Source of the DNA: Clostridiales bacterium
GTDB taxonomy: Bacteria > Bacillota > Clostridia > Saccharofermentanales > Saccharofermentanaceae
DNA length: 64,000 bases
Reading direction: 5' to 3'
Assembly: GCA_017552455.1 (NCBI GenBank)
Contig: JAFZPX010000017.1
Location: forward strand, 1 to 64,000
The position numbers and the translations under genes are program-made. This document shows positions 1,201-43,871 of this stretch, one piece after another. Every line of letters starts with the position of its first letter. Positions within the stretch are counted from its first letter, which is position 1. The notes beneath the pieces were generated by a model. The model ran no database searches, was not told the origin of the DNA, and saw only the letters and a program-made list of their open reading frames with translations.

Positions 1201-1350
1201 TATCAAGAATGTTTGCCCAAATGTCAGCGTAATGGGTTTGACGACGACCTGCGGATGCCGCTTGATATGAATGCTATAAATGAGTTGTACGGGCAGGAGA
1301 ATGATTACTCGCTCGAATACGCCGTGCAGTGGTTAGACAGATTAGGATAA
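1201..1350 (+). pseudogene. Remnant of an unknown gene (3' end only)
   Basis: The frame ending at the TAA 1348-1350 reads NGFDDDLRMPLDMNAINELY then GQENDYSLEYAVQWLDRLG. That is normal amphipathic protein sequence, but no start or ribosome-binding site lies near enough to make a complete gene, and the frame continues upstream without a credible beginning. It is best read as the surviving C-terminus of a degraded gene. It could instead be a very short real ORF starting at one of the internal ATGs. Confidence 0.35.
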
Positions 1351-1452
1351 ATCTGTCGGAAAACCAACACAAAGCAACGTTATTATTGATTGGTTTCACT
1401 TTCTGCACCTGCAATAATGAGTTTTGTAAGTACTCATTACGGAGGTGAGCAT

Positions 1453-1683
1453 ATGAAAGAACTTAATATAAAAGATCTTACTAATGTAATAGGCGGCGCA
1501 GAGTTAGGCGAGGTTCAGAACACATACTATCCGCCCGAGAGAAGTCCTATGCGCAAGTATGCAGCTACAGGCAACTGGGTAAGGCTTAAGTGCCATAAGT
1601 GCAGAAGTCTTGACATTAACTATATCGTAGTCGGCGACCACTCGGTCATGATGTGCAGAGACTGTGGTTCGATAGTCGTGTAA
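1453..1683 (+). CDS. Double-glycine leader peptide with zinc-ribbon-like core
   Basis: The 76-aa product starts at ATG 1453, fixed by GGAGGTGAGCAT directly upstream; a longer frame from 1390 lacks such a site. Residues 1-15, MKELNIKDLTNVIGG, fit the double-glycine leader of class II bacteriocins and related exported peptides: Leu at -12, Asp at -8, Leu at -7, Val at -4 and Gly-Gly at -2/-1. Known leaders of this kind are cut by C39 peptidase-ABC transporters (PCAT). The 61-residue core holds two CxxC pairs (Cys47/50 and Cys68/71; motifs KCHKC and MCRDCG), the layout of a zinc ribbon. No transporter or immunity gene is adjacent. Its role could be a secreted peptide or a signalling molecule; that is inference. 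Confidence 0.75.
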   Translation: MKELNIKDLTNVIGGAELGEVQNTYYPPERSPMRKYAATGNWVRLKCHKCRSLDINYIVVGDHSVMMCRDCGSIVV

Positions 1684-1715: not shown

Positions 1716-1741
1716 AGGGCTGTCCTGTGTGACAGCCCTTT
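1716..1741 (+). terminator. Hairpin terminator after the GG-leader gene
   Basis: AGGGCTGTC and GACAGCCCT form a perfect 9-bp stem around a 6-base loop, 33 bases after the stop codon. The T-run that follows is short (TTT), so it may be only moderately efficient. Confidence 0.6.
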
Positions 1742-29654: not shown

Positions 29655-29724
29655 GAAGTTAATAATAGATTAATGTGTCCTAGTGTCGGATTCTGTCTTC
29701 ACGGGGCACACTCTAGGAGGGGAC

Positions 29725-32700
29725 ATGAGGGTTACGAAGAAAACATCTTCAATCGCCACAGCAAGACGCGCACGCCGCGGCTTTACATTGGTCGAGCTCA
29801 TCGTTGTCCTCACGATCCTCGCGATACTTGCTGCGATCGGTGTGGCTAGTGCGGTTCGCTACATTGACCGCTCGAGATTTGAAGAGAACTCACAGAGTGC
29901 TGTAACTGTATATCAGGCGGCGCAGACAGCCATTTCTCAGAAGATCGAGAATGGAACCATAAGCAGTTGGGTAGAAGGTTTGAATGGTTTTTCTCCTGCC
30001 GAGATCTCATACCTCAACAATCAGGCGCAGGATAACCTTTCTGTTCATCATACAGTAGCACTCACATATAACCCCAATAATCCTAACAAAGCAGTCGAGG
30101 GGACAGAAGATAAGAAGCTTCATGATCTTCTTACCAGCTGCTTTTATGATCAGACGATATTCAGTGGAACAATATCCGTAGTCTTTGATGTCAGTGCTAC
30201 ATATGGCAATGGAACGATCTACTATTCTGCGAATGTTATTTCTGCCTTCTACAGCAAGCAGAATAATGCGACTACGGGTTGGCAGGCAGATTTCTGTAAC
30301 CATTCAGGCCACGAAGGATATATTGATGAAGAGCCTTGGAAGAGTCTTCCTTGTACAGACTACAATTGCAGAAGAGATACAACTCGCGTCGGTTATTTTA
30401 ACGGTCTCGAATCGTCCATTGTCGGATCGGTAGTTCTTCCTCAGGCAGATTCCGATCTGGTTGCTGATGTAACGCTTCGTAACAGCGAGACCCTTGATAT
30501 CAACTGGGTCGTATTCAGTTCTCATTCATCTACTGATGAGTTTGACCTTAACTTCTACGATAATATCGGTTCTGGAACAGATCCTCTCATCACCATAACC
30601 GTTGATGAGAAGACCATTAATGACGCGGCTCTTACACAGACATCTACAGTTTATGAGCGTGTGACGATGACGAGTGAAGGCGTTGCATACGATATGAATA
30701 TAACCAGAACCTCTCGGCAGGGAGTGGCTTCGTTCGAAGTTACCCAAAGCGATGGTACAACTGTTACATATGAGTTCCCCGTAACGAAGACGACAGTAAC
30801 GGGTGACGCTCGTGCTTCAGTTACTGAATATGCTAATCCCATGACCGGCTATACCGTATATACTCTGTCGTTAGACTGTATGATGACTCGTAATGATTAT
30901 CAGGTTAACGCCGACGCCATGTATGACTCTTCGAGATTATTCGCTAATCCCACCAATATCTATGCTGAGTTAGTAGCAGATGGAAAGGATCCGATCGTCG
31001 CTACCAGAGCTATAGACGATCCTGTTCATTTCACCGGGGTTGAGCGAGTTTACTTTAGAGACGGCGGCCATACAGCTTATTGTTATAACTTAAACGACGG
31101 TCAGAAGGCCGGATTGGACACTGATGATAGATGCGTAGTCAACACGTTGTTTGGTGACCTTCAGTATGGCGATGATCTTAATGGTATCCGCGGTAGTTTT
31201 GCAGGTGCTGTAAGCAACAATCAGACTGTAACGGCTATAATCACTTCGTACAGACATTTGTCGAACATTCGCAGGATAACTGATAATAACAACAAACATC
31301 ACTTCAATTACCTCATTGCCAGGGATCTTAACTGGTATATCCCCGGAACAGCCACGACGATGCCGGTAAGCGAAGTTAAGGTATTCGCGTCGTCAACAAA
31401 CAGCAACAGAGGACTGCTTGGATATACCGGTTATTATTATCATTCTCCGGTAGAGAACGGATCAATAAGGATAGTATCATTCCCTGCTATTCAGGAGCTT
31501 AAGGGTAATGCTGTTTTGTCTGCGGCTGTTCGTACAGATACCGGCACGGGACTGTATTCTATCAACAATGTCCAGATGCGACTTGCTTCGTTCTGGACCG
31601 GCACAGATCAGGGATATGGCCTTATCTGTAAGAACTTAGGTAAGATAACGAATATTGTTACGAATAGCTTGAATCTGGTAATGGTCAATGTTACTGACGG
31701 TTCTGCGAATGACTACGGCAGTATTTGTCCTAATTCTGTTCAGCTTACAGAGACTTCTGTTAACCGCCCGAAATCCGGAGATGGAAGAAACAAGGACTTT
31801 GACGATAAACCGATAGGTGGTCTTGTCGGTCTTAATCAGGGAACGGTCGGTATTGATAATGATGCTGTGATCATTATGAATAATCCTATAGTAATGGGTG
31901 GCCGTTATTGGTCGATCATGAAGTTCATGAAAGGCATCGGCGGTGTAATCGGAAAGAATGAAGGAAATAACGGCTTACTTAACGGAACAATAGAGGTTAA
32001 TGGATCTTTCGCTATTGTCGGTCATACATATGTCGGCGGAATAATCGGACACAGCAAGACTAATACTGTTAATGCGAGATTCATTGTTAATGGAGCTAAT
32101 CCTGCGGATGTTCCTGCAAGCAATATCGGAGTACTGCCAAGAGAGAGTAATTATACTTCCGGTTCGATGTCATGCTCCGTGGTATCATGGAATACTTCTG
32201 CCGGAGCCATCGGCTATCTCGAGAATGCTGCGCTCACATATAATATTAGCAACAAATTCGCATCTGTTTCTAATTCTGATGCTGATACGGGTTCGTTCTC
32301 GTTTATCAATCAGGATAATTTCGACTATATAATCGATGTTACTCTTCCGACAAATTCGCTCCTGATAAGCTTCGGAAACGGAAGTAGTTATGATGTTAAC
32401 GAGTCACGAAGACTGGGCAATGGCGGTGCAGTCGGTTATATGCGTGACTGTAATGTTAATAATGTCGCTGCGGGTGAGTATGTAAGTATCAGAGTACATA
32501 ATTATGGCAAGATCCTAATCGCCACTACTAATCTGGATACGGGTCACCCTAATGTAACGCTTATTTCAAGCGGTGGTGCGGTTGGACGAGATGAGAACAG
32601 TCGGGTTGATACTGTTTTTGTCAATGTTATTAATGAGCCGGGCTCGCAGATTGGAAATGTAAGTTCGCATAACATATTGTCAAGTTGCGGCGGTGCATAC

Positions 32701-35700
32701 GGTTATATTGAAGGTTCGGAACATGACGGCAGAACGTATGCGGTAAGCGTTATCAACCGAGGAACATACATCCGAGCTGAAGGCGGAGCCGAAGGTTATG
32801 GTGCCGGTGGTGCTGTCGGCGGCATAGGTTCTGATTTCGACGGCTGCTACTATATTAATGTTAATAACGCATTAGGAATCGGAACTGCCCCCAGAATAAC
32901 TGATATTGGAGATCATGGTGCCGATGTTTACGATGGTGCCGGCGGTGCTATTGGAAGTATGTACCGTGCGAACTCTTCAATTATGGCAAGTTCTGTTATT
33001 TATGCAGAGAATCACGGATCTGTCACGGGTGATTATCATGTCGGCGGAGCGATAGGTAATGCATCATCTAATTTGGGTAAGATTTATTCTAATAATGTAA
33101 ACGCTACCATTTCAGGAAATGACTTCATTGGTGGCGCTATCGGATATGAGTTAGCCTCTCAGTCCGGTACGGTTCAGTCGATCTTGGCTAATACAACAGT
33201 AAGCGGAGCGGACTTTATCGGCGGTGCTGCAGGATCATTGCAGGAATACAATGCCGGTTCAGTTACTACTGTTGTCAACGGTTCTTCATCCGTAATAGGT
33301 ACAGGCTCCTTTGTAGGTGGTGTATGCGGAGAGACTCTTAGAACTGTAGCGGATGCTACATATACATCAGTTACTCTTAAGAGAGGCAGTAATTCGACAT
33401 CCGTTCCCAGTCTTACTGTTACGGGTGGCGGTTCTTCGATAGCTGTTGGCGGTGCAGTTGGTATGCTTCGTGCACAGAACTGTGCAAACTACTGTAACGT
33501 TACAATGCCTTCGACAGAAGGAATAATCTTCAATATTGATGGTGGAGAGTGTGTTGGCGGCGCTGTCGGCGAGATTCGTTCATCTACGGCCGGAGCTTCC
33601 CATTCATCTGCTGAATCCCTCGCAGGTGATATTAAGGCTTATGATGAATACGTAAAGGTCGATGTAGTGCTTCGTTCTGAGTCACATATCATCGGTACCG
33701 GTGCTAATGTTGGCGGTGCAGTCGGTCTTGTTAATTCACAGGGTGCCGTATACAGAGAGTCGATTAGTGTAACTGCTGCTTCCGGAACTGCTTCCGGAAC
33801 GGGCATCTCAGGATCTGTGAATGTAGGAGGTGCCGTAGGATTATTTTCAAATTGCTATCCTTCGAACAGCATCACTGTTGATATCAGTGCAGTAAGTGCT
33901 CCGTTTACTATATCTTCGACAGCTTCAGATGCATCAGTTGATGCTAATCTTGGAGGCGCTATAGGAATTGTCAGTTGTGCTGTTGACGGGGATTCAGGAG
34001 TCGGATCCATAACTGTCAGACTTGGAGTTGCAAGCATTACGGCAACCGGATCTAATGTAGGCGGGGCAATTGGAAAGAACAATGTAAGTGTTACGTCCAG
34101 TTCTGCAATAAGTGTTACCTACGGCGGGGCTATTCGGGGATCAGACAGAGTCGGCGGAGCAATCGGGTATAATTTGTCTTCAGTCGGCAGCATATCATCT
34201 TCAGGTACCGGTAGTTCGAGTGGAGTTATCGGTAATGAATGTGTCGGTGGTGCCGTAGGTCTGACAGAGAATAGTATCGCCGGTATATCCGTTACGTTAA
34301 GCGGAGATAATGCAGTTGTTGGTAAGAGGTATGTTGGTGGCGCATTAGGAAGAGTAGGCACTTCCACTGATAATCCGACCATCTCGTCTGTATCTGTAGA
34401 AGTGAATACGGGCAAGCCGGTTTCTCAATCTCAGGCAATAGGTGTAAACGAAGATGCATTTATCGGAGGAGCAATCGGCCAGGTATTAAGAGGAACGGTT
34501 GCAAGTATATCCATAAGCGGATCGGGTGCAAACGTTAATCCGTATTCAGTGAATCCGAGTGCACCTAACAGGAGTGTACCAAACTCAATGCTGGTATCGG
34601 GTGCAGGAAGATCGATCGGCGGAATAATAGGACAGATAGGTGATGAGAACAGTAATACAGGAGCTGTTGTTAACGATATAACGGTTGCCGATAGCATTGG
34701 TATCTGTGTAGTGTCTACTTCAGGCTCAGAAAAGATAGGCGGTTGGATTGGCAGCTGCTATGGCCAGCTTACTGCTGTTTCTTTGCAGAGCAGCACATAC
34801 AGTGTAAAGACAGTTAAAGTGGTTTATTCTTCAGGTGAAGCCGTGGGCGGTTTCTGTGGAATAGTCAGACCAAGTGCAGATTCGCTTCAGGAGCGTGTTT
34901 CGATTAACGGAAGTGTCAGCATAGTTTATTCAGGCGCTTCTGTTACGGGCCTTGCCAGGGTCGGCGGTGCTATTGGTGAGGTTTCCGGCGGAGCCAAGCT
35001 TAGTGGCAGTATTACCGTTGATCTTGATCAGGATATATACGGAAACTTTACGAGCATAGGTGATTATCAAGGGAATACTTCAGATATTTCTCTCTGCTTT
35101 TGTATTGAAGCAGGTGGAGCTGTAGGCTATCTTGACTGTGAAGGTGCGATCTATCGAGTCATCGATGGTAAGGTGGAAGTTAACATTAAGAAGGGAAGCC
35201 GAGTATTTGCCGGAGGAACAAGCCTCGCGGGCAGTACGATAAGTTCTTTTGAGATTGCCGGAGTTGGCGGTGCATATGGACGAGTTGGTTCGATTGATAA
35301 CACAGTAGGTCCATATGTAGGTGCAGAGAATAGTACTGTTCCAAATGATAACAGTCGAAATAATAACAGTAACCAATATTTAATCGTAACTTGTGACAAT
35401 GCCAATTCATATATTTATTCAGCCAGATCGAATGTTGGTGGTTCCATAGGTCACTTGATAAGGGGTTATTTATCATACAGTCGTTCAACGGCCATTGTTG
35501 TCGGCGGCGGAAGCGGACCTAACGGTCTTGGTACAGGACAGGGATGTACGGGAGGATTGATCGGAAGAGCTGATAACGGTCATATCGAGAACTGTATTGT
35601 CGGAGGCCATACATCATATGGTCAGTATATGCGCGGAGAAGAGAATATTTCCGGATTAAATTATGTTGGCGGTTTTATTGGATATTCAGACACCGGAATC

Positions 35701-37908
35701 AATGCGATTGATCAGTGTTATACTACCGCTTCAGTGCGAGGAGACTCATATGTAGGCGGATTTGCCGGATATATCCATACTCCTAATAAGAAAGGTGCAT
35801 TGCATCAGACATATTCTACAGGCTTGGTGACGATAATAGGCACAGGGAATAATACAGGTGCTTATGCCGGATTTATAGATTTTAATAACAATTGGAATTC
35901 TATTAGATGGGATCGCAACAATGGTATGTTTAATTATGCGCTTACCGGAGTTAACAGCAATATGATGCCACGCGTAGGCAATATTGATGAGAGTGAGTTA
36001 GATTCACATGATGACGGACGTTACATTGCGTGGGCTATACCGAGTGCAACCAGATATGACACGGGGTCAAAGTCGTGGACGGACGAATATGGCAACACAC
36101 ACATATACTACTATATCAGAAATAGAAATACTATTTATACGGTTCATCCGCTCGATCCTACTTTAACTCAGAATGGATGGTTCCCATTCAGAACATTTAT
36201 GGGTAATGATCATTATGGAGATTGGCCGGTAATTGACACAGATCACCCCAACCTTTCTACGGCATTAGTCGATCTGATGGTAGATGGTAATATGTGGAAT
36301 GCTTATGATGAACCGATATCTGTAGAATATTCAGGCAGTAATGTTACTATTCCTAATCTTCAGGTGCTTGTTAACGGAGTTCCGTTGGATTCGGATGATT
36401 ACATCCTGAATTACAGTAATAATCTTCATGTAGGAACAGCTGTTCTTAACATTGTCGGTCGTAACAACTATACAGGTGTTTATGGACCGAGACAGATTAC
36501 GATCATTCCTCGTGACATTCATAACCATGAGGATGAGTTTACTGTTACATTAGATGTTCCGGATGGCGGAGTACCTTATACAGGCAGTCCGATTACACCT
36601 GAGGTAACGGTTGAATATGCGGGTAACCAATTAAGACGTGGTGAGGATTATGTATTGAGATATAGCAATAACACTAATGTTTCTGATGGTAACAGCAGTA
36701 ATCCTCCAACGGTTACGATAGTCGGACATGGTGATTATACAGGTGAAATAGTAAGGACATTCACAATTGCGGCTCCTGACTTATCCGGTGCAACGATTAC
36801 TGTCAATGGTGTGTATACGTATGATGGAACATCCCAAGAGCCGACCGTCTCTGATATGACAGTAGTTTACAATGGAATCACTCTCGAACCCAATACTGAT
36901 TATGAAGTAACTGGATATGAGGATAATACTAATGCGGGAACAGCGAGAGTATTCATTTCCGGTCTTAATAATTATTTCGGCAGCACTGCAACAGGAGAGT
37001 TTGCTATAAGCCCTGCAGATATATCTTCCGATGAGTTTACGGCAAGTCTTGTAAATGATGTTGATGCAGGTCTGTATTATGATCAGGGTGTACCGGAAAG
37101 AGGAAGTGCATATGAACCTGCTGTAACAGTAACCAGAGGGACGACCGATCTTGATGCAACAAGTGACTATACTGTTGTTTATGATGCTAACACTGCTCAC
37201 GGAACCGCTACTGTTACTATTACCGGAACCGGTAACTATACAGGAGTAAGAGTACTGACATTCAGAATACTTGAACTCTTTACTGTTACATTCAACAGTA
37301 ATGAAGGTTCAGCAGTTGATGATCAGTCTGTTGTCGATGGCGGATATGCAGCAGAGCCTACTCCTGCTCCTACAAGAAACGGGTATACATTATTGTTCTG
37401 GTATGAGCATCTTGATGAGTCGGGTAATCCGGTTGCCTTCGATTTTGCAAATACGGCAATTACAGGCAATACTACGCTCTATGCAGAGTGGGGAGGAACC
37501 ATTACATTTGTAACTAATGGCGGTACATCTATCGACCCTCAGGCGTATAGACTGGGAGAGATTGTAACGGTAGAGCCCACAAGAGATGAGTATGTGTTTG
37601 ACGGATGGTTTACTGATGAGGGTCTGACGACACCGTTTACTTCTGTTGATGGTGATACTACTCTTTATGCTCGTTGGGTTCATACAGTCACGTTAGTTTA
37701 TGGAGAAGACACCGGGATAGAAGATGTAGTGCAGCGTGTAGCTCATGAGGGGTATGCAACAGTTCCTTCGTCCATTCCGACATGGGAGGGTCACACATTC
37801 TCCGGTTGGTATGATTCAGCTGCAGGTGGAACTGTATTCGATTTCACGAATCAGCGGATAATGTCCAACTGTGTCATATATGCTCATTGGGATGAACAAA
37901 CCCCATAA
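29725..37908 (+). CDS. Giant prepilin-type adhesin with GLUG-like, Ig-like and InlB-type repeats
   Basis: A 2,727-aa protein from ATG 29725 (GGAGGGGAC directly upstream). Residues 1-45 are a class III prepilin signal: basic leader ending RRARRG, cleavage after Gly19, then FTLVELIVVLTILAILAAIG with Glu24 at +5. Residues about 45-690 form a large unassigned head. Roughly 690-2050 contain about 33 copies of a Gly-Gly-(Ala/Val/Ile)-x-Gly motif (GGAVGYM, GGAIGYEL, GGAVGLVN) spaced about 40 residues, resembling the GLUG motif and suggesting a beta-solenoid. Four Ig/MBG-like repeats of about 80 residues (2195-2515, ending ..NYTG...F.I) and three InlB B-repeats (2515-2727, ending TLYAEW, TLYARW, VIYAHW) follow. 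There is no LPxTG. It probably extends from a type IV pilus as an adhesin. Its own promoter and a terminator flank it. Confidence 0.9.
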   Translation: MRVTKKTSSIATARRARRGFTLVELIVVLTILAILAAIGVASAVRYIDRSRFEENSQSAVTVYQAAQTAISQKIENGTISSWVEGLNGFSPAEISYLNNQAQDNLSVHHTVALTYNPNNPNKAVEGTEDKKLHDLLTSCFYDQTIFSGTISVVFDVSATYGNGTIYYSANVISAFYSKQNNATTGWQADFCNHSGHEGYIDEEPWKSLPCTDYNCRRDTTRVGYFNGLESSIVGSVVLPQADSDLVADVTLRNSETLDINWVVFSSHSSTDEFDLNFYDNIGSGTDPLITITVDEKTINDAALTQTSTVYERVTMTSEGVAYDMNITRTSRQGVASFEVTQSDGTTVTYEFPVTKTTVTGDARASVTEYANPMTGYTVYTLSLDCMMTRNDYQVNADAMYDSSRLFANPTNIYAELVADGKDPIVATRAIDDPVHFTGVERVYFRDGGHTAYCYNLNDGQKAGLDTDDRCVVNTLFGDLQYGDDLNGIRGSFAGAVSNNQTVTAIITSYRHLSNIRRITDNNNKHHFNYLIARDLNWYIPGTATTMPVSEVKVFASSTNSNRGLLGYTGYYYHSPVENGSIRIVSFPAIQELKGNAVLSAAVRTDTGTGLYSINNVQMRLASFWTGTDQGYGLICKNLGKITNIVTNSLNLVMVNVTDGSANDYGSICPNSVQLTETSVNRPKSGDGRNKDFDDKPIGGLVGLNQGTVGIDNDAVIIMNNPIVMGGRYWSIMKFMKGIGGVIGKNEGNNGLLNGTIEVNGSFAIVGHTYVGGIIGHSKTNTVNARFIVNGANPADVPASNIGVLPRESNYTSGSMSCSVVSWNTSAGAIGYLENAALTYNISNKFASVSNSDADTGSFSFINQDNFDYIIDVTLPTNSLLISFGNGSSYDVNESRRLGNGGAVGYMRDCNVNNVAAGEYVSIRVHNYGKILIATTNLDTGHPNVTLISSGGAVGRDENSRVDTVFVNVINEPGSQIGNVSSHNILSSCGGAYGYIEGSEHDGRTYAVSVINRGTYIRAEGGAEGYGAGGAVGGIGSDFDGCYYINVNNALGIGTAPRITDIGDHGADVYDGAGGAIGSMYRANSSIMASSVIYAENHGSVTGDYHVGGAIGNASSNLGKIYSNNVNATISGNDFIGGAIGYELASQSGTVQSILANTTVSGADFIGGAAGSLQEYNAGSVTTVVNGSSSVIGTGSFVGGVCGETLRTVADATYTSVTLKRGSNSTSVPSLTVTGGGSSIAVGGAVGMLRAQNCANYCNVTMPSTEGIIFNIDGGECVGGAVGEIRSSTAGASHSSAESLAGDIKAYDEYVKVDVVLRSESHIIGTGANVGGAVGLVNSQGAVYRESISVTAASGTASGTGISGSVNVGGAVGLFSNCYPSNSITVDISAVSAPFTISSTASDASVDANLGGAIGIVSCAVDGDSGVGSITVRLGVASITATGSNVGGAIGKNNVSVTSSSAISVTYGGAIRGSDRVGGAIGYNLSSVGSISSSGTGSSSGVIGNECVGGAVGLTENSIAGISVTLSGDNAVVGKRYVGGALGRVGTSTDNPTISSVSVEVNTGKPVSQSQAIGVNEDAFIGGAIGQVLRGTVASISISGSGANVNPYSVNPSAPNRSVPNSMLVSGAGRSIGGIIGQIGDENSNTGAVVNDITVADSIGICVVSTSGSEKIGGWIGSCYGQLTAVSLQSSTYSVKTVKVVYSSGEAVGGFCGIVRPSADSLQERVSINGSVSIVYSGASVTGLARVGGAIGEVSGGAKLSGSITVDLDQDIYGNFTSIGDYQGNTSDISLCFCIEAGGAVGYLDCEGAIYRVIDGKVEVNIKKGSRVFAGGTSLAGSTISSFEIAGVGGAYGRVGSIDNTVGPYVGAENSTVPNDNSRNNNSNQYLIVTCDNANSYIYSARSNVGGSIGHLIRGYLSYSRSTAIVVGGGSGPNGLGTGQGCTGGLIGRADNGHIENCIVGGHTSYGQYMRGEENISGLNYVGGFIGYSDTGINAIDQCYTTASVRGDSYVGGFAGYIHTPNKKGALHQTYSTGLVTIIGTGNNTGAYAGFIDFNNNWNSIRWDRNNGMFNYALTGVNSNMMPRVGNIDESELDSHDDGRYIAWAIPSATRYDTGSKSWTDEYGNTHIYYYIRNRNTIYTVHPLDPTLTQNGWFPFRTFMGNDHYGDWPVIDTDHPNLSTALVDLMVDGNMWNAYDEPISVEYSGSNVTIPNLQVLVNGVPLDSDDYILNYSNNLHVGTAVLNIVGRNNYTGVYGPRQITIIPRDIHNHEDEFTVTLDVPDGGVPYTGSPITPEVTVEYAGNQLRRGEDYVLRYSNNTNVSDGNSSNPPTVTIVGHGDYTGEIVRTFTIAAPDLSGATITVNGVYTYDGTSQEPTVSDMTVVYNGITLEPNTDYEVTGYEDNTNAGTARVFISGLNNYFGSTATGEFAISPADISSDEFTASLVNDVDAGLYYDQGVPERGSAYEPAVTVTRGTTDLDATSDYTVVYDANTAHGTATVTITGTGNYTGVRVLTFRILELFTVTFNSNEGSAVDDQSVVDGGYAAEPTPAPTRNGYTLLFWYEHLDESGNPVAFDFANTAITGNTTLYAEWGGTITFVTNGGTSIDPQAYRLGEIVTVEPTRDEYVFDGWFTDEGLTTPFTSVDGDTTLYARWVHTVTLVYGEDTGIEDVVQRVAHEGYATVPSSIPTWEGHTFSGWYDSAAGGTVFDFTNQRIMSNCVIYAHWDEQTP

Positions 37909-38611: not shown

Positions 38612-39808
38612 ATGCCGGAATATAAATATCAGGCACAAGACAGTAAGGGCAAGATAATTAAAGGTAAAGCCGACGCTGCTGACGAGACAGATCTTCAGAG
38701 ACGTTTTCATGATTCAGGGCTGCTGCTTCTTGATGCTAAGCCTGTCACTAAGCAAATTGCACTTAAGTCTCTTAAGAAGCCTAAGCTGGCAGATTTCTGC
38801 CGTCAGCTGGGAACTCTTACCAAGGCCGGTGTCACATTGGTTAAGGCGCTTGAGATCGTCGCCAATGACGAGTCCATTACACCCTATGAGCGACAGTTGT
38901 ATATTAGGCTGCGTGACCGCGTAGTACAGGGCGTAGCGCTCTCTAATGTTATGGAAGAACTGGAACCTGCGTTTCCTCCGCTTCTTATCTACATGATACG
39001 CGCGGCAGAAACATCCGGTACACTCGATACGACATGCCTGAGACTCGCAGATCAGTATACAAGCGAAGCTAAGATGGAGCAGACCGCCAAGAACTCTCTT
39101 ACGTATCCTAAGATACTAAGTGTGTTGATCGTAGCTGTTGTTGCCATTCTCTTCGGATATGTATTACCCCAGTTCGAGGATATGTTCTCGACAATGGGAA
39201 CACTGCCTCTTGCGACACGAATTCTCATGGCGATATCTAATTTCGTCAAGACCAAGTGGTATGTATTAATAGTTGCAGTTGTTCTTATAGTTATCTTCGG
39301 CAAAATAGTAAAGAAGATTCCGATCGTCGCTTATACAATAGATATGATCAAATGTAAGGGCAAATGGGGCAAGCTGTTTAAGGTAATCTATTCCGCGCGA
39401 TTCGCCCGTACAATGAGTTCTCTGTATTCTTCCGGTATTCCGATCTACAGTTGTATTCAGATATCTAAGGGTACTATCGGTAACAAATACATTGAGAAGC
39501 AGTTCGAGGAGGTCGAGAGACAGGTCCTCGGAGGTTCCCCGATGTCTGCATCTCTGCAGAACGTTGACGGATTCGTCAGTAAACTACCGGCTACCATAAA
39601 GGTCGGTGAGGAGACAGGTATGTTAGGTCCTATGCTAGAGTCTGTCGCCAATGATCTTGATTTCTATTCCGAACAGGCGCTTGTACGCCTTACTTCGTAT
39701 ATTGAGCCCGTTATGATAGTCGTTATGGCAACCATAGTAGGTTTCATAATGATCGCTATCATACAGCCGATCTATCAGTCTTATTCGACGATCGGTGCCG
39801 GTTCGTAA
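38612..39808 (+). CDS. pilC: Type IV pilus inner-membrane platform protein PilC (T2SF family)
   Basis: A 398-aa platform protein with two T2SF domains. The first has FCRQLGTLTKAGVTLVKALE and ends in a helix pair at about 170-190. The second starts ARFARTMSSLYSSGIPIYSC and ends in a C-terminal helix (VVMATIVGFIMIAIIQPIY). The N-terminal YKAQDSKG-type motif reads EYKYQAQDSKGK. PilC/GspF links the cytoplasmic ATPase to pilin extraction. GGAAGGACTTGACGG precedes the ATG. Length matches the family. Confidence 0.94.
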   Translation: MPEYKYQAQDSKGKIIKGKADAADETDLQRRFHDSGLLLLDAKPVTKQIALKSLKKPKLADFCRQLGTLTKAGVTLVKALEIVANDESITPYERQLYIRLRDRVVQGVALSNVMEELEPAFPPLLIYMIRAAETSGTLDTTCLRLADQYTSEAKMEQTAKNSLTYPKILSVLIVAVVAILFGYVLPQFEDMFSTMGTLPLATRILMAISNFVKTKWYVLIVAVVLIVIFGKIVKKIPIVAYTIDMIKCKGKWGKLFKVIYSARFARTMSSLYSSGIPIYSCIQISKGTIGNKYIEKQFEEVERQVLGGSPMSASLQNVDGFVSKLPATIKVGEETGMLGPMLESVANDLDFYSEQALVRLTSYIEPVMIVVMATIVGFIMIAIIQPIYQSYSTIGAGS

Positions 39809-39827
39809 AGAAAGGAAGAGTATGTAA

Positions 39828-41318
39828 ATGGCTGTAGTAGTATTTCTGTCAAATACCAATATTCAGGTAGCGACCGGATCGCCGACGCCGGGCGGTGTTA
39901 AGGCTACCAAATTGTTCTCTGCGCCGCTTCCGGAGGGAGCAGTTCTTAACGGTGTAGTTATGGACAAGGATATGCTCACACAGACGATAAAGACAGTGTG
40001 GCAGACGAACAAGCTTCCGAAGGCTGAGGTAACGCTCATCATTAACAGTCCTCAGCTTCGTGCTAACAGAACTGATGCTCCTATCCTGTCAGATAAGAAG
40101 ACAACAGCGTTTATAAAGAGGGAGACGGCGGATTCCGAATATGGAAGATTCACGAAGCCTGTTACCGGCTGGTATCTGATAGGCAAGGACAGTAAGGCCA
40201 AGACACAGCAGATCATATATGAGACGGCTGAGTCTGATTTCGTAACGGGATATGTCGATATCTTCGACAAGGCGGGACTTAAGCTTAAGTCCATCCATAA
40301 CGGCGTGCATATCGCGACTGAATTCCTGACCAAGGCTTCTGCGGGCAAGACGGTCATCTACATGATCCTCGACGGTAATTCACTGGTCACGATCTTCTTT
40401 GCCGAGGGTAAGTTCTACTACGACTCGACATCGCGAGTATTCGCTCAGCCCGGAACGCCAGAGTTCGCTCGAGAGATCTATTCGTCCATATCGTCCATCA
40501 GACAGTTCATGTCAGCTCAGCATATTGAAGCAACGGTCAAGGATGTCCTGTTTGCGGGTTTGACCCAGCCGCAGGTTACATCACTGTCGAATGACATACT
40601 TAACATAGACAGTCAGATCGACATATCCGTCATTACTGCTCCTGCAGGAACATCTATTTCTGAAGGAATGGCTGCGTTCCCGTTCTATGTTTATCCGATT
40701 GCAGGTCTTCGTAAGATTGACGAGAGACTGTCGGTTCTTAAGGCTTCCAAGCAGAGTGTTGCTAAGGAAGGAGATAAGGGCAGTCTTGTTAAGCTCATAA
40801 TTCCTTTTGTTGGTTTTTTTATTCTGGCGGGAATAATCCTAGCTGCAGTTACGGCGATCAGAGCCTCAAAGAAGGCTGAACTTAAAGAGCTTAACGACTA
40901 TATTCAGGACCCTGATGTTATTGTTCAGGTAGCAGAGTACGATGCGATGTATGAGAACATGGGAGAGATGGGAACGATACAAGGCGGGGCAGATCTGCTT
41001 CATCAGGATATCGAATCATATCCGATACCGGACTCTTCTATCAATCAGAGAATTATCGAAGCTGCTATTCCTCACGACGTTGATATAGAGATCAATTCGT
41101 ATGATGCGTCAACCGGAGTATTCAGTGTTACGGCATCTTCGCCGGTAGTAGATGACATAAACATGTTTATAGCTGATCTCATGTCCATGGATATATTCGA
41201 GAATGTCGATTACACAGGCTATGCCATCACAGCCGATGGTGAGACGTGGAAGATCAATGTAGTATGTACCCTCGCCGGAAGAGAGCTTCCTTCCGATGCA
41301 GAAGGGGAGGTGAACTGA
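39828..41318 (+). CDS. PilM-PilN fusion-like pilus assembly protein
   Basis: A 496-aa protein. Residues 1-310 have the PilM pattern: an actin-like fold starting AVVVFLSNTNIQVATG, with phosphate-loop-like turns and a central TVIYMILDGNSLVTIFF strand pair. One membrane helix lies at about 325-345 (IIPFVGFFILAGIILAAV), and an external ferredoxin-like domain follows, as in PilN. In most species PilM and PilN are separate and join through the PilN cytoplasmic tail; here both appear in one chain. It is followed at one base by PilO and sits between PilC and PilB. The assignment rests on layout and gene order more than on motifs. Confidence 0.75.
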   Translation: MAVVVFLSNTNIQVATGSPTPGGVKATKLFSAPLPEGAVLNGVVMDKDMLTQTIKTVWQTNKLPKAEVTLIINSPQLRANRTDAPILSDKKTTAFIKRETADSEYGRFTKPVTGWYLIGKDSKAKTQQIIYETAESDFVTGYVDIFDKAGLKLKSIHNGVHIATEFLTKASAGKTVIYMILDGNSLVTIFFAEGKFYYDSTSRVFAQPGTPEFAREIYSSISSIRQFMSAQHIEATVKDVLFAGLTQPQVTSLSNDILNIDSQIDISVITAPAGTSISEGMAAFPFYVYPIAGLRKIDERLSVLKASKQSVAKEGDKGSLVKLIIPFVGFFILAGIILAAVTAIRASKKAELKELNDYIQDPDVIVQVAEYDAMYENMGEMGTIQGGADLLHQDIESYPIPDSSINQRIIEAAIPHDVDIEINSYDASTGVFSVTASSPVVDDINMFIADLMSMDIFENVDYTGYAITADGETWKINVVCTLAGRELPSDAEGEVN

Positions 41319-41319
41319 T

Positions 41320-42183
41320 ATGGCGAAGTTTGAAACTAACCTCAATAAAAAAGACAAGATGACGATAGCGATTGTGCTGTTTGTCGGTGCGTTGTTTGCC
41401 TTTTCATGGTATTTGATAAAGCCTGCTATAACAGATATCAGATCTTTATCGGATGATATTGAGCAGGCGGAGATACTTAAGACTCAGTACAGGAACAAGA
41501 TAATTAACTTAACTAGTGCAGAATCTGCATTTGATCGAGTCGTAACAGACTTGTCAGATTCTACAACAGGTTTTTATGAGATCATGCCAAGTTCGACTAT
41601 CGACCGAATGGCGACAAATTATGTATTAAGCTTCGGGTTGTTTCCTGAGTCATTGGAGATTACTATGCCGACTGGTCCGATTGAGGAAACACCGTATGTC
41701 TATTCGGAAGCATATGAAGTACAGATTAATTCGGTTGTAGATTCATTGCCCACACCTACTCCTATTACGACGACAGGACTGGGGTTGACGGCATCAGGGT
41801 CTGTCAGTTCAAGTTCCGGTACTACACCTTCTGTTGAGGTTGAAAGCTTGTTTGTTCCATATAATCAAGCTAGGGCAAATGCAGTTTCAACTTCTTATTC
41901 GGGTGTACAGGGTGCAGATCTTACACTTATCATGACTGGTTCACCGGAGGCCTGTCAGGCTCTTATCGATGATCTGTGTACTAAACCTGCTATTAGGATA
42001 ACCGGATTTGAGTGGATGACTATTGATCCGGTTGAGCATTATGATGAGGAGACGGGTGAAGTCGAATATATTGATCCTGATTATACAAGACTTCGTGTGA
42101 GTCTTCGACTATATATGGCAGATGTGGCTGACTACGAGGCGATGGTCTCCGATGCGGTAGAGGCTGCAGGAGCGGAGGGATAA
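41320..42183 (+). CDS. pilO: PilO-like pilus assembly protein
   Basis: A 287-aa bitopic protein. A short cytoplasmic start is followed by a helix at about 15-35 (MTIAIVLFVGALFAFSWYL), a coiled coil (SDDIEQAEILKTQYRNKI) and an external domain interrupted by a Thr/Ser/Pro-rich linker at about 145-175. It ends in a ferredoxin-like fold with ADLTLIMTGSPEACQALI, the usual end of PilO. It would form the alignment subcomplex with the PilN part of the preceding protein. GGGGAGGTGAACTGAT precedes the ATG. Confidence 0.8.
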   Translation: MAKFETNLNKKDKMTIAIVLFVGALFAFSWYLIKPAITDIRSLSDDIEQAEILKTQYRNKIINLTSAESAFDRVVTDLSDSTTGFYEIMPSSTIDRMATNYVLSFGLFPESLEITMPTGPIEETPYVYSEAYEVQINSVVDSLPTPTPITTTGLGLTASGSVSSSSGTTPSVEVESLFVPYNQARANAVSTSYSGVQGADLTLIMTGSPEACQALIDDLCTKPAIRITGFEWMTIDPVEHYDEETGEVEYIDPDYTRLRVSLRLYMADVADYEAMVSDAVEAAGAEG

Positions 42184-42185
42184 TC

Positions 42186-43871
42186 ATGGCAGACAATTCC
42201 AAGATTCGTATAGGCGACTTGATGGTCTCGGCGGGTTATATTACCGAAGACCAGCTTAAAGAAGCTCTCGGAATACAGAAAGAATCAGGCGGTAAGAGAA
42301 TCGGTCAGGTCCTTCTTGACCTGGGATATGTTACCGAGGTTCAGATGTTGTCTGCGCTCGCCGACAGACTTGATATCCAGCTTATTGACATCACCGCATA
42401 TCCGATCGATGTCGAGACTGTTCAGCTTATTCCCAAGCAGCTCGCAGAGCAGTACGTTATGCTCCCCATCGGTCAGGAGAACGGTGAAGTAATCCTTGCA
42501 GTTAACGATCCTCTTAACCTCTATGCCATCGAGGATATAAGACAGACGATCGGTATGCCGGTAAGGACTGTCCTTGCACAGGAAGTACCTCTCAAGGAAG
42601 CTATCAACTACCAGTATGCAGGGATCAAGGCCCGTATGGCTGCCGAGCATGCGAACGCCAATACTGCGGGTATCAATGTTGATGAACTCGTTATCGATAC
42701 GTCTGCAGGTGCCGATGATGCTCCTATCATCAACCTCGTTAACTCACTCCTTGATAAGGCTTTCCAGGATAATGCGTCCGATATCCATATCGAGCCATTC
42801 GAGACTAACGTTATGGTAAGAATGCGTATCGACGGTACGCTCATTGATTACATCACACTGCAGAAGAATGTTCAGGATTCACTTGTCGCCAGAATCAAGA
42901 TCATGGGTGACATGGATATCGCCGAGAGGCGTATCCCTCAGGACGGCCACTTCCGTGTAAGGATCCAGGGGCAGATTGTCAACGTCCGTGTTAACGTCAT
43001 CCCTACGGTATTTGGCGAGAAGGTCGTTATGAGACTTATCATGTCTGCAGTTGCTATCGACAACAACCAGACGTTCGGTATGACTCAGGAGTGTTACGAC
43101 AAGTTCACCAAGATGCTTATGTCGCCTAACGGACTTATCTATATTACGGGTCCTACGGGTTCAGGTAAGTCCACTACGCTTTATAACGCTCTCGGCTCTC
43201 TCTCTCAGAAGCCGATCAATATCAGTACCATCGAGGATCCTGTCGAGAAGAATCTGCCTAGATTAAATCAGGTTCAGGTCCATCCTACTGCAGGTCTTAC
43301 ATTCGAAGTCGGACTTAGAGCTCTCATGCGTCAGGACCCTGACGTAATCATGGTAGGTGAGACGCGTGATGCCGAGACTGCATCGATCTCCATCAGAGCT
43401 GCCGTTACAGGTCACCTGGTACTGTCAACACTTCATACTAATGATGCCGCATCGACGATCGTAAGACTTATCGATATCGGTGCCGAGCCGTACATGCTCT
43501 CGTCCGCTCTTGTAGGTGTAGTAGCCCAGAGACTCATGCGTAAGGTATGTCCTTACTGTGCCAAGCCGGAGCCGCTGTCCCAGAGACAGATAGAATTCCT
43601 GGGACACGATATTCCCGGAGCCAAGAAGGGTGCGGGCTGCGGTCAGTGCCATAACTCGGGTTATCTCGGTCGTACCGCCATTCACGAGGTCCTTGTCGTC
43701 GATAAGGCAATGCGTAAGATGATAGCCGAGAATGCTGAGGCTGAAGAGATGAAGCAGTATGCCATCAAGAACCAGGGCATGAAGACTTTGAGAATGGCTG
43801 CCGAGCTTCTTGTTCAGCAGGGCATCACATCGATGGAAGAGTTAGAGCGTGTCGCCTACAATGACGACTGA
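42186..43871 (+). CDS. pilB: Pilus extension ATPase PilB/GspE
   Basis: A 561-aa hexameric motor. The N-terminal MshEN/GspE-N domain (about 5-150) begins IRIGDLMVSAGYITEDQL. The ATPase part has ASDIHIEPFETNVMVRMRID, Walker A GPTGSGKSTTLYNA (about 321-334), an Asp/His box region, and Walker B DPDVIMVGETRDAETA (about 382-397). A tetracysteine metal site follows in CPYCAKP and CGQCHN. This is the extension type, not the retraction ATPase PilT. GGAGGGATAATC precedes the ATG. Confidence 0.96.
   Translation: MADNSKIRIGDLMVSAGYITEDQLKEALGIQKESGGKRIGQVLLDLGYVTEVQMLSALADRLDIQLIDITAYPIDVETVQLIPKQLAEQYVMLPIGQENGEVILAVNDPLNLYAIEDIRQTIGMPVRTVLAQEVPLKEAINYQYAGIKARMAAEHANANTAGINVDELVIDTSAGADDAPIINLVNSLLDKAFQDNASDIHIEPFETNVMVRMRIDGTLIDYITLQKNVQDSLVARIKIMGDMDIAERRIPQDGHFRVRIQGQIVNVRVNVIPTVFGEKVVMRLIMSAVAIDNNQTFGMTQECYDKFTKMLMSPNGLIYITGPTGSGKSTTLYNALGSLSQKPINISTIEDPVEKNLPRLNQVQVHPTAGLTFEVGLRALMRQDPDVIMVGETRDAETASISIRAAVTGHLVLSTLHTNDAASTIVRLIDIGAEPYMLSSALVGVVAQRLMRKVCPYCAKPEPLSQRQIEFLGHDIPGAKKGAGCGQCHNSGYLGRTAIHEVLVVDKAMRKMIAENAEAEEMKQYAIKNQGMKTLRMAAELLVQQGITSMEELERVAYNDD

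Follow-up and report, generated by a model that had tools for sequence, protein, structure and literature searches.

A double-glycine leader peptide with a zinc-ribbon-like core in a rumen bacterium, a candidate substrate of an NHLP-type C39 exporter

When analyzing a 64,000-nucleotide window of the genome of a rumen bacterium (genome G000; the window begins at base 1 of contig C26), we noticed a gene at 1453 to 1683 on the plus strand that translates into 76 residues plus stop, a 15-residue double-glycine leader followed by a 61-residue core. We propose, with a probability of about 0.6, that this precursor is cut after Gly15 by a C39 exporter and that the zinc-ribbon mini-protein thus set free acts as an extracellular effector. 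An earlier, sequence-only reading of the window had offered two options, a new exported metal-binding peptide or a precursor modified after translation. The first is the better supported of the two, with export and zinc binding both predicted.

Precursor gene and leader

The features of the locus are listed below.

1214 to 1350, plus strand: 3'-terminal remnant of an S41-type peptidase gene, found by tblastn and outside the working unit; G014 has the whole gene upstream of its orthologue
1441 to 1449, plus strand: strong ribosome-binding site GGAGGTGAG, 5' of the ATG, read from the sequence
1453 to 1683, plus strand: precursor gene, 76 residues plus stop, from translation; probably under purifying selection, judged with the orthologue
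1453 to 1497, plus strand: double-glycine leader, residues 1 to 15, with the cut expected after Gly15; above the TIGR01847 cut-off and 19.8 bits with a leave-out leader model
1498 to 1680, plus strand: zinc-ribbon-like core of 61 residues, from translation; calculated mass 6962, pI 8.5
1591 to 1602, plus strand: first CxxC pair, C47 and C50, read from the translation and kept in the orthologue
1654 to 1665, plus strand: second CxxC pair, C68 and C71, read from the translation and kept in the orthologue
1717 to 1738, plus strand: GC-rich hairpin 3' of the stop, 8 pairs with a loop of 6, read from the sequence

The ATG at 1453 is preferred to an upstream TTG, which would give a 97-residue frame, because of the ribosome-binding site and the point at which homology begins. 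A promoter scan returned 3 sites (shuffle mean of 1.8), none of them just 5' of the peptide gene on its strand. The hairpin, with just three T behind it, is a possible terminator and was absent from the output of a terminator scan.

The leader, MKELNIKDLTNVIGG, has Leu at -12, Asp at -8, Leu at -7, Val at -4, and Gly at -2 and -1, which agrees with the earlier claim that it fits the class II bacteriocin consensus at these six positions. Residues important for C39 recognition are Leu-12, Glu-8, Leu-7, Val-4, and the double glycine, as described in the excerpted text of PMC6363468. The double-glycine consensus M(R/K)ELx3E(I/L)x2(I/V)xG(G/A) of Dirix et al. 2004, in the wording quoted in an excerpt of PMC3140520, fits the window leader except for Asp in place of Glu at -8, and the leader of the orthologue fits it exactly. 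Residues 1 to 15 match the NCBIfam model TIGR01847 (bacteriocin_sig) with 17.9 bits (cut-off, 15.7). A further leader model, built from 18 peptides with the window peptide and its orthologue excluded, gave the window peptide 19.8 bits. With this model, the second-best frame of the window reached 5.5 bits, and 20 shuffled windows, which preserve base composition only, reached no more than 7.1 bits at best. The window leader thus has the features of a C39 substrate (hydrophobic at -12, -7, and -4, acidic at -8, and ending in a double glycine), and the same genome encodes a C39 exporter (see below). Pfam and NCBIfam scans, taken to an E value of 10, returned no nitrile-hydratase-like or Nif11-like leader model.

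Zinc-ribbon likeness of the core

The two CxxC pairs lie at residues 47 to 50 and 68 to 71, bearing out the earlier description of a 61-residue core with zinc-ribbon-like spacing, and both are conserved between the window peptide and its orthologue. They are common to this core and the zinc ribbons of the S27e, TFIIS, and Rpb9 kinds, but sequence and fold similarity to those proteins is weak and everywhere below cut-off. To our knowledge, the S27e, TFIIS, and Rpb9 proteins are intracellular and have no leader. The window peptide has neither a zinc-ribbon family match over cut-off nor a confident fold. All zinc-ribbon-type hits in its Pfam scan were subthreshold, the best being Ribosomal_S27e (17.2 bits; cut-off, 24.5), and a sequence search of solved structures gave just two entries of one protein at a meaningless E value of 1.1. 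AlphaFold, run with two sequences, predicted a leader helix at residues 6 to 12 and three strands surrounding the two CxxC pairs, with a mean pLDDT of 48.6 and about 63 over the ribbon. When this model was submitted to Foldseek, the top hits were largely RNA polymerase zinc-ribbon subunits and TFIIS and TFS4 chains (best E value of 0.37, not significant). The predicted structure is consistent with a ribbon but is no proof of one.

Orthologue, selection, and gene neighborhood

The orthologue, in a metagenome-assembled genome from yak rumen (G014), shares 64% identity with the window peptide and has retained its leader, double glycine, and all four cysteines. A search of named genomes gave one homologous locus, JAGDCV010000033.1, whose protein is the same as the G014 copy. 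Among 85 congeneric genomes, clear whole-peptide matches were found only in G000 (E value of 4.7e-52) and G014 (7.5e-51). The remaining matches had E values of 1e-4 or weaker and were mostly within longer proteins; those in frames of 442 to 453 residues were rejected as homologues, being other proteins with a ribbon. The sequence-only reading would have been undermined by homologues without the leader or the double glycine; no leaderless homologue was found in the 85 congeners.

Comparison of the two genes by the Nei-Gojobori method gave a dN of 0.256 and a dS of 1.30, a dN/dS of about 0.2 that is rough since dS is high; for the ribbon part alone, dN was 0.127 and dS was 1.62. The differences are most frequent at the third codon position (21, 14, and 34 at the first, second, and third positions), and the frame appears to evolve under purifying selection.

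A 581-residue protein with weak similarity to S41 peptidases ends about 80 bases 5' of the peptide frame in G014, on the same strand. In the window, tblastn recovered two pieces of the last 94 residues of this protein, residues 488 to 502 at 1214 to 1258 and residues 548 to 581 at 1246 to 1347, with the intervening stretch lost. The peptide has outlived the upstream peptidase gene. This relic would also suit a decaying peptide gene, the remnant of a lost peptidase-peptide unit, but that explanation is highly improbable given the intact frame, the strong ribosome-binding site, the third-position differences, and the low dN/dS. Moreover, the peptidase is not a regular partner: only G014 and G030, among 30 peptidase loci, have a zinc-ribbon peptide with a double-glycine leader nearby. 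As a general processing partner, the S41 peptidase was rejected on this count.

Inspection by eye of the window and of the G014 neighborhood revealed no shared candidate for an immunity or modification gene. In neither neighborhood did we see a shared small membrane protein that could be the immunity gene beside a class II precursor, nor, around the gene and its orthologue, a modification enzyme of the kind found in NHLP/Nif11 RiPP clusters. A search of viral contigs for a phage link found no relative. Elsewhere in the window, an open reading frame of 2,741 residues (29683 to 37908, plus strand) starts with a pilin-type GFTLVELIVV N terminus followed by long glycine-rich repeats, and sits among apparent type IV pilus assembly genes (38612 to 43871).

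The C39 exporter and its co-occurrence with the leader

The earlier reading reported no adjacent C39 transporter and regarded the lack of one in the whole genome as contrary evidence. The first statement stands for the window, where open reading frames of at least 120 residues were inspected by eye, but not for the genome, which encodes an NHLP-type C39 exporter pair elsewhere. PF03412 locates the exporter at 142978 to 143367 (minus strand) of contig C67. The exporter gene (L052, 8236 to 10416, minus strand) scores 896.9 bits with the NCBIfam model NHLM_micro_ABC1 (equivalog cut-off, 853.3), and the gene next to it scores 743 bits with NHLM_micro_ABC2 (equivalog cut-off, 709.4). The pair thereby resembles the NHLP/Nif11 export system (TIGR03796, TIGR03797, and TIGR03794). 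It differs in that the third gene, a 157-residue HlyD-like gene preceding the ABC pair, is far below cut-off (27.1 versus 156.2 bits), and in that the window leader is short and bacteriocin-type, not a nitrile-hydratase or Nif11 leader. The peptide gene on C26 and the exporter on C67 lie on separate contigs of this genome, which is 69% complete.

For the genus, we used a leader model of 20 hand-chosen rows; the peptides behind six of these rows have cores with one or two CxxC. Other peptides with such a leader, for which a search had been suggested, occur both in G000 and in the genus. Six clear matches (E value of 0.003 or better) were found in G000, namely, the window peptide, four on contig C33, and one on C67, with two weak ones besides. 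In total, there were 173 leader matches in 37 of the 85 congeneric genomes (E value of 0.2 or better). The scattered short leader peptides on C33 (L051, 442 to 6629, minus strand) have mutually dissimilar cores.

The C39 exporter is present in 32 of the 85 genomes (E value of 1e-10 or better). Leader matches were found in 28 of these 32, compared with 9 of the 53 genomes without a detected exporter (Fisher P value of 1.1e-10, which is too generous since the test ignores the relatedness of the genomes). Leaders are present with no C39 match in the nearly complete genomes G012, G092, and G074, and the exporter is present with no leader match in G005, G066, G096, and G099. Most leader genes, the window's included, are far from the exporter; at least nine, among the matches listed, are within 20 kb of a C39 match on the same contig. 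This distance, and the fact that zinc ribbons are intracellular as a rule, would fit a cytosolic zinc-ribbon protein whose N terminus is merely leader-like. We consider this very unlikely, as the leader scores far above the next frame in the window and is kept in the orthologue, and as the leader class tracks the exporter.

Cores carried by the leader across the genus

From 216 DNA sequences, the window among them, we read out 140 distinct leader peptides. Hydrophobic residues occupy -12, -7, and -4 in 138 of the 139 that have a full 15-residue leader. An ATG start was assigned in 139 of the 140 and a ribosome-binding motif in 137, both favored by our start-site rule. Two CxxC pairs, defined as a CxxC and a second one 5 to 45 residues further on, are found in 24 of the 140 cores (1,000 within-core shuffles: mean of 0.27, maximum of 3). 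As a control, 3 of 79 other small open reading frames with a ribosome-binding site at the same loci have two such pairs (Fisher P value of 0.0045). The 24 peptides stem from 17 genomes, counted by locus. The distance between the two pairs ranges from 7 to 28 residues, and the cores form several groups, with poor alignment between groups. Because of this poor alignment, judged without a tree, ribbons seem to have joined the leader more than once.

A Pfam scan of 10 leader peptides without a zinc ribbon gave two matches over cut-off, one to LysM (45.4 bits; cut-off, 20.9) and one to the phosphopantetheine-binding domain (39.7 bits; cut-off, 20.8). The latter is a double-glycine leader fused to an acyl-carrier-type domain (PF00550; L054, 6844 to 7149, plus strand) in G016, a 64% complete genome with no C39 exporter detected. 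The LysM match belongs to a family of LysM-like cores with the leader (plus strand, L038 1501 to 1749, L057 11085 to 11333, L146 880 to 1128, and L113 1828 to 2079; minus strand, L148 647 to 889), in which the L038 member passes the Pfam model and the L057 member is near exporter genes. Another family, of about 110 residues with the core VIGEVxNDSEFLHKxGLMD..., is found at L137, L138, L114, L186, L143, L151, L110, and L111; the tested member, L137, has no Pfam match, and in G027 some 3 kb separate the family from a radical SAM gene.

The window peptide could be a conventional class II bacteriocin that kills closely related bacteria and happens to have an unusual fold. It shares with the TIGR01847 leader peptides the 15-residue leader, the recognized positions, and the double glycine, and its core is slightly cationic (calculated charge of +1.9 at pH 7). 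However, this core is zinc-ribbon-like, not a membrane-active peptide, and no immunity candidate was seen beside it or its orthologue. The 116 cores of the leader set without two pairs are mostly acidic (median pI of 5.2), which is unusual for bacteriocins. The acidic cores of the relatives and the lack of a visible immunity gene speak against a typical bacteriocin, and we regard this explanation as quite unlikely.

Zinc-ribbon peptides at exporter genes

Zinc-ribbon peptides with the double-glycine leader were found at exporter genes in three congeners, G032, G106, and G098. The clearest case is G106, where the peptide, a TetR-type regulator, an HlyD-like gene, ABC1, and ABC2 lie on one strand, flanked by what we take to be recX/recA and rimO. 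No modification enzyme was seen in or beside this operon. Two ABC genes and a regulator gene in G032 are followed directly by the peptide, whose second pair is C-x4-C and which is thus outside the 24. The G098 peptide faces the end of ABC2 across a gap of about 40 bases. A five-member family including the G106 and G098 peptides was compared once by hhalign with the window/G014 pair (probability of 96.9, E value of 1.9e-10); the alignment spans 72 columns from leader to C terminus, and its score is owed partly to the shared leader. The model of this family, with the pattern CPxC...CQDCG, matched in 9 of 391 genomes of the class at an E value of 0.001 or better, at full length only in G061 and otherwise partially or in longer frames.

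On contig C13 of G098 (L275, 4973 to 7490, minus strand), a zinc-ribbon-like peptide with a double-glycine leader adjoins a radical SAM gene and two precursors that look Nif11-type, and the locus looks like a RiPP cluster. The CCRG-2 RiPP model matches 6 of 25 double-glycine zinc-ribbon peptides (E value of 0.05 or better), and each of 10 genomes checked has at least one SPASM-type radical SAM protein. The window peptide might be a RiPP precursor whose cysteines form no zinc site but undergo modification ahead of export; a trans-acting radical SAM enzyme could be responsible, for example. Against this, no modification enzyme was seen near the window gene, its orthologue, or in the G106 exporter operon, and LanC-like enzymes are present in only 1 of the 10 genomes, that of G014. 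In addition, the spacing of the ribbon and the residues flanking it show the conservation seen in metal sites, which is an argument from resemblance. We hold a modified precursor to be unlikely; it has little support because no such enzyme was seen at the operon of G106, the clearest exporter-linked relative.

Proposed export route and relation to known systems

In the export route that we favor, the gene would yield a 76-residue precursor whose leader, in helical form, would bind the C39 domain of the NHLP-type exporter from contig C67. The exporter would cleave after Gly15 and pass the 61-residue core out of the cell. Cleavage at this site and release of an unmodified core are expected because the leader has the residues recognized by C39. 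The two CxxC pairs would hold one metal ion, most likely zinc, and the ribbon would stabilize the mini-protein. The presence of this exact peptide in only 2 species of 85 counts against the proposal, as does the distance of its gene from the exporter. We would guess that the released mini-protein is a small extracellular effector, most likely directed towards neighboring bacteria; that diverse cores share one leader points, again as a guess, to dealings with other bacteria.

Double-glycine leaders are usually taken as a sign of bacteriocins or modified peptides. A comparable system is the C39 protease LahT with its LahA substrates from Lachnospiraceae C6A11 (excerpted text of PMC6363468), which shares positions -12, -7, and -4, the double glycine, and diverse cores on one leader type. 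In that text, LahA peptides have Nif11-type leaders and a lanthipeptide cluster, whereas peptides of the window type have a short leader, scattered genes, and no linked modification enzyme. Cyanobacterial HetP proteins bear a double-glycine motif although they are not bacteriocins, according to an excerpt of PMC3140520; they are another protein family and have no zinc ribbon. Our search of open-license literature found no paper joining a double-glycine leader to a zinc-ribbon core; PMC9200625, in its excerpted parts, uses both terms but separately. The leader, the exporter family, and the fold are each already known, and zinc ribbons as recurrent cargo were not found in the literature searched.

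The tag sits on cores among which small independent domains stand out, zinc ribbons foremost, and it tracks the exporter. Small zinc-binding folds look like regular cargo of the C39 export route. More tentatively, and with doubt outweighing confidence, one C39 exporter pair may be a general secretion route in this rumen genus for small folded domain proteins on the same short leader, which would have taken on zinc ribbons several times independently as well as LysM and an acyl-carrier-like domain; the zinc ribbons would then be a new class of secreted metal-stabilized effectors. Should the cores leave the cell unmodified, a common gut exporter would carry a class of cargo that searches for bacteriocins would miss or misname.
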